Shown here: positions 23,644 to 29,779 of the stretch, piece after piece
How the letters are laid out: the number at the start of each line of letters is the position of its first letter
Numbering within the stretch: position 1 is the stretch's first letter
IMG/VR virus record: IMGVR_UViG_3300042888_001347
Location: 1-34,495 of that record
Origin: a virus
Reading direction: 5' to 3' (one strand)
DNA: 34,495 nucleotides
Notes under the pieces: generated by a model
The model's input: only the letters and a program-made list of their open reading frames with translations
Databases searched by the model: none
What the model was told of the DNA's origin: nothing
Position numbers and translations under genes: made by a program

Positions 23644-25136
23644 TGCCCGACCCGATCAACAACCCGCTCTCGCAACGTCAGTCGATCCCCGGCGCAGGAT
23701 TGCCACCAACCAAGCGACCGCGCAAGCCGCTCCCGCCTCCGATTGATCGTGGACTGACCGGGCCGCTCGCCATGCCTGTGGAAGTGCAGCGGAGTTTCTT
23801 CCGAACCGCCAGCCTGATGCTGCGGAACTCCAGCCTTGCGTACCGCCTTGACCCGAACTATCAGGCGATGATGCGGGCAGACGCGGACATCGAGGGCGTG
23901 CTGCGCTCCCTGCTCGTGACCCTTGCCGGGTTGGAGTGGAACGTCCTTTCCGACGACGAATCAGACCCGCGCCTCGTCAAGCTCGCCGAGCGCATTGCTG
24001 AGATCATCGGCGCAGCCCCTCGCCGTAGCGATATGTTCCGCTCCTTGCACGAAGCCGTCTGGTATGGGTGCAGCGCCGTGAACGTCGTCTACGACCGTGA
24101 CCCGCGCCTTGGGGTACGCATCCGCGAATGGCTCCCGCTCGCCTCCGACACCCTCGCCTTTGACCAGACCGGGAACGTGGCAATGCGCGTTGGTAGCGCC
24201 TACATCAACGAGGCATCCGTCACCGACCTCGGCTTTGACTCGCTCGTCCACCTGTTTGACGACAACGAACGCCGCGCCATTGTCCTGCACCGCGTATTTA
24301 CCACCGCGCCAAACTTCATCGACCCGAACAGCGCCGAGACGGTTTACCGTGGCGTAGGTGCGCGAGATGTCTGTTGGTACATCTGGCTCTTGAAGCAGGA
24401 AGTCCTACAGAACGCCGCCGCCTATGTGGAGCGGTACGCCCTCGGCATCCGTGTTGGGTACTACCCAGCCGGGAACGATGCAGCCAAGAGCGAGATGATG
24501 ACCATCCTGCAAAACTTGGTCAATGACAACTCGGTCGTCCTGCCCCGCATTTCGCCGACCGAGTCCATGTACGACATCGACATCAAGGACGCGAACGGTG
24601 GCCGCGCCCAGATCTTTATGGAGTTGGTCAACTGGCTCTCTGGCAAACTCAAGGAAGCGATCCTCGGTCAGTCGCTCTCTAGCGAGGCTGGCGGGACGGG
24701 TATGGGGTCAGGCGTTGCCGACCTCCACGCCGATACCCTTTCTCGCGTAATCCGCTATCACGCGGATTGCCTCGCGGAGAGCCTGACTACCGACCTTGTC
24801 CGCATCATTGCCGGGATGCTCGGAGCCTCCGAAGAGGATGCCCGCCGCATTCGGTTCGTCTTCGCCCCGGAGCGCCCGAACCCGAAGGAGCGGCTCGAAG
24901 CAATTCAGACGTTTATCCAAATGGGTGGCCGCGTCAGCGAGCGCGAAGTCCGCGACCTGCTCGGCCTGTCCGACCCGGAAGACGGGGAATCCGTCCTTGG
25001 CGGTCAAGCCGCAGGCAGCGCGGGCGCATCGAGCAACCCGCTCTCAGCCATGCTCGGGCAGGGCAACGAGAGCGAGGGCGACGAGCCAGCCCCTGAAGCG
25101 CCGAAGGTAGCCGCCGTCCGTAAGCGCAAGCGATGA
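23643..25136 (+). CDS. Portal protein, DUF935 / Mu gp29-like
   Basis: A 497-residue protein with the features of the Mu gp29-like portal family (DUF935): a proline-rich N-terminus, DADIEGVLRSLLVTLAGLEW (about 79-98), a central LHEAVWYGCSAVNVVY segment, and the typical KEAILGQSLSSEAGG...GSGVADLHADTLSRVI stretch (about 340-370) before the C-terminal domain. Portals form the dodecameric ring through which DNA enters and leaves the head. It is followed by a MuF-type protein with a 4-nt overlap, the order expected for Mu-like head modules. Confidence 0.9.
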   Translation: MPDPINNPLSQRQSIPGAGLPPTKRPRKPLPPPIDRGLTGPLAMPVEVQRSFFRTASLMLRNSSLAYRLDPNYQAMMRADADIEGVLRSLLVTLAGLEWNVLSDDESDPRLVKLAERIAEIIGAAPRRSDMFRSLHEAVWYGCSAVNVVYDRDPRLGVRIREWLPLASDTLAFDQTGNVAMRVGSAYINEASVTDLGFDSLVHLFDDNERRAIVLHRVFTTAPNFIDPNSAETVYRGVGARDVCWYIWLLKQEVLQNAAAYVERYALGIRVGYYPAGNDAAKSEMMTILQNLVNDNSVVLPRISPTESMYDIDIKDANGGRAQIFMELVNWLSGKLKEAILGQSLSSEAGGTGMGSGVADLHADTLSRVIRYHADCLAESLTTDLVRIIAGMLGASEEDARRIRFVFAPERPNPKERLEAIQTFIQMGGRVSEREVRDLLGLSDPEDGESVLGGQAAGSAGASSNPLSAMLGQGNESEGDEPAPEAPKVAAVRKRKR

Positions 25137-27043
25137 CCAAAGCCGAACTCGACAAGCACCTCCGCAAAGTCCTGCGCCAGTCGCAGCAGGCGTACCGTAG
25201 GGCGGTCGCGGCTCAGGTCAGGGGCGAAGATGCCCTTGCGGCGTGGGCAGAGTTCCACGAGGCAACGGCGGCGCTCCTGATGGCATCGTGGTTGTTCGGG
25301 GCGCGCGACACGGTAGACACCGCCAAGATCCCGGACGGGGCTATTGAAGGAATGCTGGACGATGGGGACGCGGTCAAGTTCGACCGAGACGTGCCGATCT
25401 CCCTTGAAGGCTTCGGGACAAAATGGATGGCTCCGATCACGGGCTGGTTCAGGAAGCGCGTCCCAATCTCACGCGCCGACTGGGAGTTGCTCATCAAGGC
25501 AGCAGCCGCCAGCGCCGGGGACGTGACCGATCACGAGCGCGAGAACGCCCTTCCTGACCTCCGCAAGCAGTCCCCGATCCTCGATTCGTTGTTACGTGGT
25601 GTTACACGAGGGCCGCAAGGGGCTATCTCCCGGGTGAAGCGGATCGTCGATACCACCTTCTTTGTCACCGCCATGCCTGTCGCGCAGGCGCGGATGGTGC
25701 AGGAACTGATCGCGCAGGTCATCGAGGAGCGCCCTACCAAGAGCGTGGTCGGCAAGCTCATCAAGACCATGAACCTTGGCGACTTCGTCACCACCGCCCA
25801 ACTGATGACCGGGACAGGGCTAACGTCCTCCCGCCTTGAAACCGTCCTGCGGACGAACACGAACCGCGCCATGACCGAGGGCAGCGCCGAAGTCCTACGG
25901 GACGAGCGGGTGCAGGCGTTTGTCCCGCTGGTGCAATTTAGCGCCACCAAAGACCCGCGCACCCGGGACACACATCGAGCCTTTGACGGCTACGTCGGGA
26001 CGATGGCAGACTTCGACCGCCTTGGGATTGCACCGCCGCTAGGCTTCAACTGCTTCCCCGGATGGCAACCTGTTGAAGGCGCAGTCGATATCGGCTTCCG
26101 TTCGCTATATCGCGGAGCGTTGGTAAACCTCAATACGCGGTCTGGTCATACTGTCACAGCGACAGCCAACCACCCAATACTCACCAGCCGAGGATGGTTG
26201 CCTGCTAATGCTGTCAAGGTTGGCGACAAGATGCTGCGCCGCAGCGGCAACGCCGTGGACGCGGCGGAACGATCCGGAAACGACAAGGGCGACCACCTGC
26301 CACCCACAGCCCTGCAAGTATTCGACACGCTTGCGGCGAAGGCTGTAGCCGCAACGACTGTCGACGCGAAGACTTCCCGCCATGTGTTCTACGGCGACGC
26401 GCTTTCCATGCAGGGCGAAATCGAGGTTGTATGGGCCGACCGCGTGCTGGTGTTTGATACCGTCAATGCCGAGCGCACGGATGGCATCAAAGAGCGGCAG
26501 CTCGTCCGGGCTAGTTCGCCGAGAGCAGGACTTGGCACGCTTGGTAAGGCATTCGATGCTCTGCGCCCGACTCCGGACAGCAGCCCAAGCGGCTCCGCAT
26601 TGGCGCTTGATAGCGGCAGGATCTTGCTTGATCCGGCTCCATTTCAACGCTTCGGACTCCCCTTGCGTGCGGAGATGAACGCCGCGGCGCTTGAGCCGCA
26701 CGTCGATTGCATTGCGAGAAACGCCGACAGATTTGGCGATTTGGTTGGTACTTTCGCCAGCGCCGTAACGCTTGACGATGTCGTCGATGTCGATGTTGTT
26801 TCTGATTGGTCTGGCCATGTGTATGACTTTCGTAGTAGCAGCGGCATTCTTCTTGCTGACAGCATAGTCGTAAGCAACTGCCGCTGCGCCATCATTCCCG
26901 TCCCGGCAGCCGAGGCGTTGCGCGAGCGATGGACGCGCCCGAACGGGACGATAGACCCAGCCGCTATTGCCAAGCACAACGGAGCGCGTCAGCGGCTAGT
27001 TGACACGCGCCAAGTTCCTGACCCCGGTTTCGTAAACGCATAA
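25133..27043 (+). CDS. MuF / SPP1 gp7-like minor head protein, intein-interrupted
   Basis: A 636-residue precursor. The N-extein (1-306) has the helical MuF layout, with the LRTNTNRAMTEGSAEVLRD segment (about 236-255) and the RDTHRAFDG motif (about 281-289), ending APPLGFN. The C-extein (583-636) begins CRCAIIPV. Joined, they restore the conserved family motif GFNCRC, so splicing removes residues 307-582 and gives a 360-residue mature protein. MuF proteins sit at the portal and act in head assembly and DNA entry. The inserted element and the antisense gene it carries are annotated separately. Without splicing the essential NCRC motif would be broken. Confidence 0.9.
   Translation: MTKAELDKHLRKVLRQSQQAYRRAVAAQVRGEDALAAWAEFHEATAALLMASWLFGARDTVDTAKIPDGAIEGMLDDGDAVKFDRDVPISLEGFGTKWMAPITGWFRKRVPISRADWELLIKAAAASAGDVTDHERENALPDLRKQSPILDSLLRGVTRGPQGAISRVKRIVDTTFFVTAMPVAQARMVQELIAQVIEERPTKSVVGKLIKTMNLGDFVTTAQLMTGTGLTSSRLETVLRTNTNRAMTEGSAEVLRDERVQAFVPLVQFSATKDPRTRDTHRAFDGYVGTMADFDRLGIAPPLGFNCFPGWQPVEGAVDIGFRSLYRGALVNLNTRSGHTVTATANHPILTSRGWLPANAVKVGDKMLRRSGNAVDAAERSGNDKGDHLPPTALQVFDTLAAKAVAATTVDAKTSRHVFYGDALSMQGEIEVVWADRVLVFDTVNAERTDGIKERQLVRASSPRAGLGTLGKAFDALRPTPDSSPSGSALALDSGRILLDPAPFQRFGLPLRAEMNAAALEPHVDCIARNADRFGDLVGTFASAVTLDDVVDVDVVSDWSGHVYDFRSSSGILLADSIVVSNCRCAIIPVPAAEALRERWTRPNGTIDPAAIAKHNGARQRLVDTRQVPDPGFVNA
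26051..26878 (+). mobile_element. Intein in the MuF protein
   Basis: A 276-residue Hint-type intein (residues 307-582). Cys1 is at 26051-26053; block A includes GFRSLYRGALVNLNT; block B is TATANHPILTSRGWLPA with the T-x-x-H pattern; the C-terminal block reads GHVYDFRSSSGILLADSIVVSN, followed by Cys+1 at 26879. The residue before the terminal Asn is Ser instead of the usual His, a known but less frequent variant. No LAGLIDADG or HNH domain is present on the sense strand. The central region (about residues 380-540) is longer than a mini-intein needs and is explained by the gene on the opposite strand. Confidence 0.88.
26105..26818 (-). CDS. Antisense homing endonuclease inside the intein (HTH plus Vsr/EDxHD-like nuclease)
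   Basis: A 237-residue protein on the strand opposite the intein. I start it at ATG 26818; the frame is open further to 26977 but those residues mirror the extein. Residues 10-58 are a clear HTH region: IVKRYGAGESTNQIAKSVGV, SRNAIDVRLKRRGVHLR. Residues 105-180 look like a PD-(D/E)XK nuclease of the Vsr/EDxHD type: an acidic helix (E106), HQHAVGPYNLDFAL with D133, VAVEHMAG with E144, then basic RRKR (161-164) and GCGWQVVALVV (170-180). The tail has a GEYWVV strand. Such enzymes cut intein-less alleles so that repair copies the element. The ribosome site is weak. Antisense ORFs in this register are often spurious in GC-rich DNA, but this one has two ordered, recognisable domains. Confidence 0.75.
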   Translation of the reverse strand: MARPIRNNIDIDDIVKRYGAGESTNQIAKSVGVSRNAIDVRLKRRGVHLRTQGESEALKWSRIKQDPAAIKRQCGAAWAAVRSRAQSIECLTKRAKSCSRRTSPDELPLFDAIRALGIDGIKHQHAVGPYNLDFALHGKRVAVEHMAGSLRVDSRCGYSLRRKRVEYLQGCGWQVVALVVSGSFRRVHGVAAAAQHLVANLDSISRQPSSAGEYWVVGCRCDSMTRPRIEVYQRSAI

Positions 27044-27833: not shown

Positions 27834-28400
27834 ATGCCCGTAATCACCACAGCACAAGAGAACTTCCGCAAGGTCACGGTCGCTACCGTCCCTGCAACCT
27901 ACACCGCAGCGCAGGCCGTCCTGCTCAACGCTGCCCCGACTAGCACAACGGGCAGCGCACTCCTGTGGGACATCAACACGTCCTCGGTGAGCGGAACGAA
28001 CCCCTCCCTGCTCTACGTCATGCCGTACATCGTTGTGTCTGGCACACCAGCAAACACGGGCATTGGTATGCGACTCCTTGGTTGGCGGAAGTACCTTGAT
28101 GCCGCAGGGACAAGCTTTTGGTATATGCCGACCGTCCTCGCAGACTTTACGCTTAATTTTACCAGTCCAGCATCTTCAACGCCGACTTACACCATCGACG
28201 TGGCGAACACGCGCACCTTCTCAAGCATCACGCAAGTGGGCGGAACCCCTGCCGCTAACCTGTACTCGCCCGCTACGGCGGCGGCTGCAAATGTGGAACC
28301 CGCCTACGCGATGGTTGACCTTGCCGGATCGTCCTACGTTACCGCGCAGTTCAAGGCGACCAGCGCGCCAACCATGGGAACCTTCTGGTCTAACCTGTAA
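27834..28400 (+). CDS. Putative capsid decoration / structural protein
   Basis: A 188-residue Thr/Ser/Ala-rich beta protein starting directly after the previous stop (TAAATG). Strand-like segments alternate through the protein (ATVPATYTAAQAVLL, LLYVMPYIVVSG, FTLNFTSPA) and there is no charged coiled coil. Position between the portal/MuF genes and the capsid gene, and translational coupling (TAATG) to the following spike-like gene, favour a head surface protein or spike base. No family is identified. Confidence 0.45.
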   Translation: MPVITTAQENFRKVTVATVPATYTAAQAVLLNAAPTSTTGSALLWDINTSSVSGTNPSLLYVMPYIVVSGTPANTGIGMRLLGWRKYLDAAGTSFWYMPTVLADFTLNFTSPASSTPTYTIDVANTRTFSSITQVGGTPAANLYSPATAAAANVEPAYAMVDLAGSSYVTAQFKATSAPTMGTFWSNL

Positions 28401-29779
28401 TGAATCGAGCGAACCGTCCAAGGATGTCACGGATCAGCGGCTCGTCCCGTGCGAGCAAGCTGATGGGTCGCGCTGGTGACGGCTCGACCCTGTCCCTTGA
28501 CTTCACGGCAATGGGTTCAACGATTGACTCGCGCATTACGTTTAGCCGTGCAGACGCTACGCCGCTGGCTACCTTCGTTAACAGTCTTGGCTACGTCACG
28601 ACCGTTGCAACGGCGCAAGCGCCTCGCTTCGACTTTGACCCGACAACACTTGCGGCGAAGGGCTTGCTTCTAGAAGCGCCATCAACAAATAAAATGTTTG
28701 GATCTGAATCATTGGCAGCATCTGGTGCGCCAATCAACTGGCAGTTTACCGACCAAGTAACACGCAACGCTACATATGTAACTAGCCCAAGAGGCGCGGT
28801 GGATGCCGTGACGGTCAACGAAACTGTAGCCAACAATATTCATCGGACTGGTCAATTTGCAAGCCCCGGATATACGGTTGGTGCTGTCTGCACATTTTCA
28901 TGTTGGGCTAAGGTTGCAAAAAGCGCTACACCAAGAAAATTGTTTGTCAACTTGACGCAATTAATAGGCAGTTCAGGTCTGTTCGATTTAACTGCATCGG
29001 GTAGTAGTGGAACGGCTCAAGCAACTGCAGGAACCGCAGTAAATCGCTCGACTTCTTGGACAAAATACCCGGGTGACGGGACTAACAACTGGTATCGAGT
29101 GACTGTAACCGGAAACTTTGTAGCCGATGCAACAATCCGCTTGCAGATTAATCGCGCAAGTTCATCAGCGGCAACAGATGATTCCTTTATCGGCGAAACA
29201 GATAATGGGCTTGTAATATGGGGCGCACAGTTTGAACTCGGAACCGCATCCTCGTACATTCCTACGGGCGTGAGTCAGGTGACACGCGCCGTAGACACCG
29301 CCATCATTGCTGCGGGGTCAAACTTCAGCTCGTGGTACACGGGTGGAACAACGGGTACGTTCGTTTCTAATTGGTACGGAAGCGCGTCTAGCGCAACCGC
29401 TCGCTCTGTGATTGCAACAAGCGACCAGACGACCAAGCATTTGCATATGTATCAGACCCCTTCCGCGCTCACGCTGCGGTTGGCAGACTTCAACGCAGCG
29501 GCAACTATCACAACAGCAAACAGTCTGACAGCTGACGCGTTGGCAAAGGGTGCATTCAGTTACAACGGGACGGCTACTAGCCTGTGCCTGAACGGCGGTA
29601 CGGTCGCTACCGGGACGCTGGCGTTTAGTGCCGCCCCAACGTGGCTGAGTATTGGCGGCCCGTCCACGAACGGGACGAGCATTACTGCAACCGATGTCAT
29701 GCTCAACAACAGCATCCGCACGCTCAAGTATTTCCCTACGCGTCTAAGTGACGGTCAAATCCAAGGGCTAACCACATGA
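28400..29779 (+). CDS. Putative head fibre / lectin-like spike protein
   Basis: A 459-residue protein of a type common in phages: an opening with SLDFTAMGSTIDSRITFSRADAT (about 31-53), then PRFDFDPTT and GLLLEAPSTNKM (about 75-100), a beta-sandwich part with W and SYIPTGVSQVTRAVD (about 284-298), a FSSWYTGGTTGTFVSNW lectin-like part (about 308-325) and the ending IRTLKYFPTRLSDGQIQGLT. This order is that of concanavalin A/LamG-like phage fibre proteins that bind sugars. It lies in the head module, so a head fibre fits better than a tail fibre. The middle (about 28680-29250) is AT-richer than its flanks, as in the tailspike. Confidence 0.6.
   Translation: MNRANRPRMSRISGSSRASKLMGRAGDGSTLSLDFTAMGSTIDSRITFSRADATPLATFVNSLGYVTTVATAQAPRFDFDPTTLAAKGLLLEAPSTNKMFGSESLAASGAPINWQFTDQVTRNATYVTSPRGAVDAVTVNETVANNIHRTGQFASPGYTVGAVCTFSCWAKVAKSATPRKLFVNLTQLIGSSGLFDLTASGSSGTAQATAGTAVNRSTSWTKYPGDGTNNWYRVTVTGNFVADATIRLQINRASSSAATDDSFIGETDNGLVIWGAQFELGTASSYIPTGVSQVTRAVDTAIIAAGSNFSSWYTGGTTGTFVSNWYGSASSATARSVIATSDQTTKHLHMYQTPSALTLRLADFNAAATITTANSLTADALAKGAFSYNGTATSLCLNGGTVATGTLAFSAAPTWLSIGGPSTNGTSITATDVMLNNSIRTLKYFPTRLSDGQIQGLTT

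Follow-up and report, generated by a model that had tools for sequence, protein, structure and literature searches.

A mobile-type intein of a phage MuF head gene with a putative homing endonuclease gene in register on its opposite strand

When a conserved protein motif inside a phage intein is the codon-by-codon complement of what looks like a nuclease active site, which of the two strands is under selection, and what might the overlapping frames do? The question is raised by a viral DNA of 34,495 nt (IMG/VR record IMGVR_UViG_3300042888_001347, positions 1 to 34,495; this whole stretch is called the window below), in which a sense open reading frame (ORF) at 25133-27043 (+) and an antisense ORF at 26105-26977 (-) share their codon boundaries, every codon of the antisense frame being formed by the reverse complement of a single sense codon. 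An earlier reading of the letters alone (the sequence-only reading) had proposed that a sense stretch of the D-F-H-G-D ... G-E-V-D-V-V type may be only the shadow of the catalytic residues of an antisense nuclease. Our analysis favours, with a probability of about 0.83, a mobile intein in a MuF gene that carries a homing endonuclease gene antisense and in register, with motifs that are coded on both strands. The following features of the window are concerned.

25133 to 27043, + strand: MuF-type head protein precursor, 636 residues, interrupted by an intein (PF04233, TIGR01641, phrog_15127)
25133 to 26050, + strand: N-extein (MuF) ending in ...PPLGFN; empty alleles run from FN directly into CRC
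26051 to 26878, + strand: intein of 276 residues that begins with Cys1 and ends with Asn (SN), Cys+1 coming next (blocks A, B, F and G; Hint-fold model)
26879 to 27043, + strand: C-extein beginning with CRC; the same sequence is present in intein-free alleles
26168 to 26185, + strand: intein block B (NHPILT), which holds the splicing His and lies across from the codons for the C-terminal part of the antisense nuclease (residue conservation)
26813 to 26830, + strand: intein block F (GHVYDF), whose codons also contain the antisense start codon
26387 to 26431, + strand: dual-coded segment, sense FYGDALSMQGEIEVV, antisense YNLDFALHGKRVAVE (column statistics)
26105 to 26818, - strand: putative antisense nuclease gene, 237 residues, ATG at 26818, stop codon at 26105-26107 (Pfam, AlphaFold2, PDB matches)
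26681 to 26755, - strand: helix-turn-helix (HTH) core, residues 22-46 (Pfam HTH_7; model helices 24-31 and 35-44)
26387 to 26512, - strand: first half of the nuclease core with invariant or nearly invariant Glu106, Gln124, Asn131, Asp133 and Glu144 (alignment, columns of 118 sequences)
26420 to 26422, - strand: catalytic-type Asp133 (GAT), opposite sense Ile (ATC)
26387 to 26389, - strand: catalytic-type Glu144 (GAA), opposite sense Phe (TTC)

The register of the two frames is exact: all 15 codons of FYGDALSMQGEIEVV give YNLDFALHGKRVAVE on the opposite strand. The interval 26387-26422, to which the motif had first been assigned, covers only the first 12 of these codons, but the catalytic-type Asp133 and Glu144 do lie opposite the sense motif as had been proposed. 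A similar motif, which the sequence-only reading had named for some phage Hint proteins, does exist in other phages, as EDFHGDGTDGEVEIV in Escherichia phage Snoke and DFHGDISDGEVEVV in Gordonia phage Vivi2.

The antisense protein reaches the Pfam cutoffs of two families, HTH_7 (E 4.3e-5) and DUF559 (PF04480, E 2.2e-4), the latter also being reached by its homologues L038 and L004; the frame remains open upstream of the ATG to 26977. Its AlphaFold2 model (mean predicted local distance difference test score, pLDDT, 81.9) consists of an HTH part similar to those of resolvases and Mos1-type proteins and of an alpha-beta-beta-beta-alpha-beta core (helix 106-115, strands 121-127, 130-136 and 141-147, helix 162-170, strand 174-180). 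The acidic active-site pair, conserved as D in 117 and E in 118 of the 118 nonredundant loci used for all column statistics, is placed on the second and third strands, and the positions invariant in 16 diverse antisense sequences include Glu106, Asp133, Glu144 and Arg164. The top PDB match of the model by Foldseek is the catalytic domain of I-Bth0305I (3r3p, E 1.4e-3, Z 8.2), and a comparison with Vsr (1cw0) gave Z 10.1 over 112 residues. I-Bth0305I is a Vsr-like, intron-encoded homing endonuclease that acts on recA, and EDxHD is the motif of its family. The likeness seen here is one of fold; a His-containing E-x-x-G-G-x-W-H stretch occurs in some clades of the antisense protein and is absent from that of the window. 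Longer antisense proteins with apparent additional N-terminal HTH units were observed at seven loci (L003, L004, L007, L008, L041, L135 and L137), in L135 and L137 perhaps more than two, opposite longer linkers of the sense protein; the extra units possibly serve the recognition of different targets.

In-register antisense frames are easily open in GC-rich DNA, and near block B some of the similarity among antisense proteins follows from sense conservation. Both would suit an antisense ORF that is not a gene and merely results from GC-rich codon usage and the conservation of a sense domain. To obtain a sample blind to the nuclease, we took the best 80 IMG/VR loci that matched intein block A-B alone. 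Four of the contigs end soon after block B, where a match is partly the shadow of that block, leaving 76 loci to be scored; loci and catalytic residues were called with a profile hidden Markov model, as a regular expression missed genuine cases. All 76 loci that reach the active site encode the antisense nuclease, 75 of them with both Asp and Glu. Of the 3105 sense Leu and Ser codons that lie between blocks B and F, 4 would create an antisense stop (TTA, CTA or TCA); for the exteins of these genes the figure is 440 of 4321 (73 of the 80 loci were parsed for this count, the other seven having no recognisable block F). Even loci such as L190 and L072, whose exteins use stop-making codons often, have a long antisense ORF. 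When synonymous codons were shuffled with the sense protein kept, the antisense profile score fell from a median of 206 to 64 bits, and the pairing of the two frames is therefore more than chance. Signals for translation point in the same direction. The aligned antisense start is ATG in 78, GTG in 16 and TTG in one of 105 sequences (95 in total), and 40 of these 95 carry a Shine-Dalgarno match of at least 5 bases, compared with 12.7 expected (z 8.8) when the sense residues of block F were kept and their codons redrawn; in many relatives, the codons of block F contain this antisense Shine-Dalgarno sequence as well. Together with the confidently modelled nuclease fold, the existence of a free-standing homologue and the better conservation of the antisense protein than of the sense protein in the nuclease region (both below), these findings make a by-product scarcely credible. 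We rejected a chance origin of the antisense ORF on the basis of the shuffle control, the stop-codon depletion, its presence in 76 of 76 loci and the pattern of wobble changes in 16 sequence pairs described next.

In a comparison of the window with its relative L055, the N-extein differs at sense codon positions 1, 2 and 3 in 77, 69 and 160 cases, the pattern of a normal gene, whereas the differences in the nuclease region are 80, 20 and 44, concentrated at the antisense wobble position. Identity follows the same division: in the nuclease region it is 0.74 for the antisense and 0.58 for the sense translation, while in the N-extein the values are 0.40 and 0.67. Counts by zone were made over 16 independent pairs, deduplicated for shared contigs and clades. 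For antisense residues 8-99 (HTH and linker), changes at position 1 exceed those at position 3 in 16 of the 16 pairs, and for residues 146-200 in 14 pairs, with the reverse in one. The relation turns around in block B (position 1 in excess in 4 pairs, the reverse in 10) and in the D-F-H-G-D-A zone (3 and 9 pairs, respectively). At fixed antisense residues, the sense residue tracks the synonymous codon choice of the antisense frame. Thus, Glu144 is encoded by GAA in 91 and GAG in 27 of the 118 loci, and the sense residue is Phe in 91 and Leu in 27, by TTC and CTC alone; Arg50, an Arg in 115 of 115 sequences, uses six codons, and the sense residue opposite is Ala, Ser, Pro or Thr. Selection in the sense frame alone, which the sequence-only reading had named as an outcome that would speak against it, is not what is seen: over most of the region, selection acts mainly in the antisense frame.

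Is the sense motif, then, a stretch without a role of its own, a pure shadow of the nuclease? Several observations fit this view. The catalytic residues account for the V/I and F/L positions of the motif, sense identity is below antisense identity over most of the region, and variation is free at the sense Val/Ile positions that face Asn131 and Asp133, with a relative antisense synonymous diversity of 1.44 at column 131 and 1.12 at column 133; nearly all of columns 8-129 have values close to 1. The G-E-V-D-V-V half, as far as column statistics can tell, is mostly such a shadow, and to that extent the original proposal stands. It fails for the D-F-H-G-D half, where the relative diversity drops to 0.13-0.19 at columns 140-143; lowered values also occur at columns 145 (0.42), 135 (0.48) and 130 (0.33). 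In the D-F-H-G-D half, sense His is encoded by CAC in 98 of 118 loci, about 24 being expected (z 17.4), sense Gly by GGC in 108, about 48 being expected (z 11.6), and the sense Asp codon is observed 63 times against 28 expected (z 8.8). Both GAC and GAT are used for the sense Asp retained at columns 141 and 145, so that it is the amino acid and not the DNA that is constrained. Sense identity also exceeds antisense identity in D-F-H-G-D-A (0.895 and 0.832 over the 16 pairs), and the model of the sense protein gives the region a fold of fair confidence. Other antisense columns constrained by the sense frame are 166 and 169 (sense F and E of P-x-x-I-E-x-V-F), 198 and 199 (sense D and G), and block B. 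Because antisense wobble is frozen at the D-F-H-G-D residues kept in the sense protein and free over almost all of the preceding antisense columns, we regard the segment as dual-coded; judged by these codon patterns, selection acts on the sense protein too at D-F-H-G-D.

A free-standing relative of the nuclease bears on the same point. In Acinetobacter phage IME285, it lies tail to tail with an intein-free MuF gene.

L044, 455 to 1348, + strand: free-standing nuclease homologue, 297 residues
L044, 1342 to 2055, - strand: intein-free MuF gene with the conserved site M|CKC

The homologue retains V-A-L-E and the Asp, has 12-13 stops in its opposite frame and, when compared with a 97% identical relative (L274), shows 6, 6 and 27 changes at the three codon positions, as an ordinary single-coding gene does. 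It lacks the sense motif although V-A-x-E is kept, which a pure shadow would not lead one to expect. We rejected the pure shadow because of the sense codon excess, the frozen wobble and the reversed pattern in the D-F-H-G-D-A zone, and consider it improbable. The IME285 pair may be a relic or a homing pair that does without an intein.

The favoured reading further requires that the sense element is an intein. The sense protein matches PF04233 (Phage_Mu_F) at residues 222-307 (E 7.8e-11), and joining of the exteins would give GFN|CRCAIIPV, the sequence carried by intein-free relatives. Cys1, T-x-N-H of block B, N276 and C277 are invariant in 38 of 38 aligned inteins, and over the 118 loci block B has H in 117, N in 116 and T in 117. 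Over residues 1-277, the AlphaFold2 model of the intein scores Z 12.7 against the Hedgehog Hint domain and Z 12.3 against the Mtu RecA intein; it is confident at residues of about 1-66, 84-128 and 237-277 and poor at 129-235, and because of this low confidence the in-frame insert of about 129-235 is probably disordered. The P-x-x-I-E-x-V-F and D-F-H-G-D parts lie within the extra piece 84-128, which is fairly confidently folded (block means 74-86). Hence residues, fold and precise in-frame insertion identify the element as a Hint intein, which would be expected to splice. The intein of the window ends in Ser-Asn-Cys (26873-26881) instead of the usual His-Asn; among its relatives, Snoke (L001) and Gordonia phage APunk (L006) are examples with a penultimate His.

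Evidence for mobility comes from empty alleles. A scan gave 47 MuF loci, of which 46 were scored (L264, ending inside the N-extein, was left out): seven carry the intein and 39 are empty at the exact site (...FN|CRC or a close variant), two of the 39 with a shifted junction residue. The N-extein of one empty allele is 100% identical at the protein level, and the closest N-extein belongs to an empty allele for the window, for L230, for L240 and, its own identical copies aside, for the group L241-L243; intein-bearing and empty alleles are interleaved by N-extein relatedness. Between L051 and L055, about 23-40% of bases are different over the first 180 codons of the gene and fewer from codon 180 towards the site, while their inteins differ by 0-5% per 20-codon block, a contrast consistent, at the sequence level, with homing and co-conversion. 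A same-architecture intein with an antisense nuclease was also found once outside MuF, in a gene matching a phage DNA helicase (phrog_62; L107, 3001-3786).

The nuclease could also be real and have another role, such as marker exclusion against the DNA of competitor phages or a function related to packaging, the intein merely sheltering it. MuF genes do belong to the head and packaging cluster, and the free-standing copy of IME285 adjoins a MuF gene without an intein. This explanation is nevertheless unlikely in view of the precise empty alleles at one site, the little-diverged intein between diverged exteins, the likeness to the catalytic domain of a homing endonuclease and the copy in a helicase-type gene. 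Homing and marker exclusion are, however, compatible with each other.

From these results, a mechanism may be proposed for the mobile intein with its antisense nuclease. The sense-strand Hint domain would excise itself between FN and CRC. On an antisense transcript, ribosomes would start at the ATG within the codons of block F and make a protein composed of an HTH and a Vsr/I-Bth0305I-like nuclease; the homing endonuclease would thus be a separate antisense protein that overlaps almost the whole intein, and not an in-frame intein domain. Its cleavage target would be the FN|CRC codons of MuF genes without the intein, into which repair of the break would copy it. In the shared codons, antisense Asp133 and Glu144 would impose V/I and F/L on the sense strand, and the sense D-H-G-D residues would freeze antisense wobble bases. 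Since the nuclease active site shares base pairs with D-F-H-G-D, P-x-x-I-E-x-V-F and block B, all presumably needed by the intein, overprinting might lock the element, so that loss or free decay of the nuclease would damage splicing. We offer this lock tentatively, at somewhat less than even odds. Ordinary inteins often lose their nuclease. No mini-intein without a nuclease was found among the 76 complete loci, and broken antisense frames occur in merely 3 of 73; a lock would explain both.

Several points weigh against the reading we prefer. In the three loci just mentioned (L160, L196 and L201), the antisense frame contains one or two in-frame stops, whereas the sense intein is open and the D-F-H-G-D motif is retained. 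Inteins that keep the motif opposite a broken frame, which had been named beforehand as evidence against the sequence-only reading, thus exist, but the breaks look recent, and the retention is, going by sequence, consistent with either recent decay or sense selection. One of the 76 loci has Asn in the position of Asp133, and part of the similarity among antisense proteins, towards block B, is a shadow of the intein. The Foldseek E-values for the nuclease are merely about 1e-3, and a PDB sequence search with it gave no match to a solved structure. The Shine-Dalgarno match of the window itself is weak (score 0), and no sigma-70-type promoter was found near the antisense start, where 0.4 were expected. 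Finally, ordinary recombination could also give the low divergence between the inteins of L051 and L055.

The arrangement had been suspected of being widespread and misannotated, and both suspicions proved sound. Besides its presence in every complete locus sampled, tblastn at 1e-5 matched 58 phage records with the antisense protein and 118 with the sense protein. We examined 13 annotated phage regions, which represent 12 different phages. In 11 of these, the matches lie inside a coding sequence (CDS) annotated as a head gene or as hypothetical, the twelfth being IME285 with its free-standing copy; the 11 are phages of Escherichia, Salmonella, Aggregatibacter/Haemophilus, Vibrio, Mycobacterium, Gordonia, Idiomarinaceae and Pseudomonas. 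Nearly always a single strand is annotated: among the 13 regions, an antisense CDS over most of the nuclease is present in Salmonella phages PK1 and PK2, as a 'hypothetical protein'. Among plasmids, one PLSDB record was matched, NZ_LN890657.1 (26872-27570, Candidatus Promineifilum breve), under an annotated phage minor head protein. Scans of genome contigs gave 10 and 20 candidates, none of which was confirmed. In the window itself, a gene downstream of the head genes (28400-29779) has a weak match to Laminin_G_3 (concanavalin A-like lectin), under the Pfam cutoff.

The element combines traits of several known systems. Like the mobile inteins with an in-frame endonuclease, such as PI-PfuI and TliVMA, it has a Hint domain, a conserved site before Cys and presence/absence polymorphism, but its nuclease is a separate antisense gene. 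I-Bth0305I is like the antisense protein in its catalytic domain, as the top PDB match; the latter differs in its N-terminal HTH and in being encoded antisense inside a head-gene intein. With Vsr and DUF559 (PF04480) it shares the core fold and a conserved E...Q...N-x-D...E pattern, and it differs from them by the fusion to an HTH and the antisense nesting in an intein. Snoke CPT_Snoke_004 is the same element; in its record, the capsid morphogenesis protein is marked as containing an intein, and the part examined lists no antisense nuclease. An intein-containing capsid morphogenesis protein is described for Jerseyvirus-like phages (PMC8425127), the available passages of which make no mention of an antisense nuclease. 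Nuclear group I introns carry antisense homing endonuclease genes (PMC9548176) and resemble our case in having the splicing element and the homing endonuclease gene on opposite strands. In those introns, however, the splicing element is a ribozyme in ribosomal DNA, with the endonuclease gene in a peripheral RNA segment, whereas here two proteins share in-register codons, and the host element is not a self-splicing RNA but a Hint protein domain whose reading frame is that of MuF. These antisense intron genes and the Vsr-like homing enzymes are the precedents for the proposed system. In the listed titles and abstract openings of Creative Commons-licensed PMC papers, a body of literature that excludes subscription papers, no intein with a homing endonuclease gene on its antisense strand was found.

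If the proposed reading is true, a large family of phage inteins has the gene for its mobility written antisense in the very codons of the intein, and only one strand of it has been read so far. It would then be a clear example from nature of two proteins whose conserved motifs overlap, in which selection can be read base by base for each strand, and the question of why some selfish elements keep their nuclease would become testable. For annotation, the case is a warning that the conservation of a protein stretch may in part have been imprinted by an opposite-strand gene.

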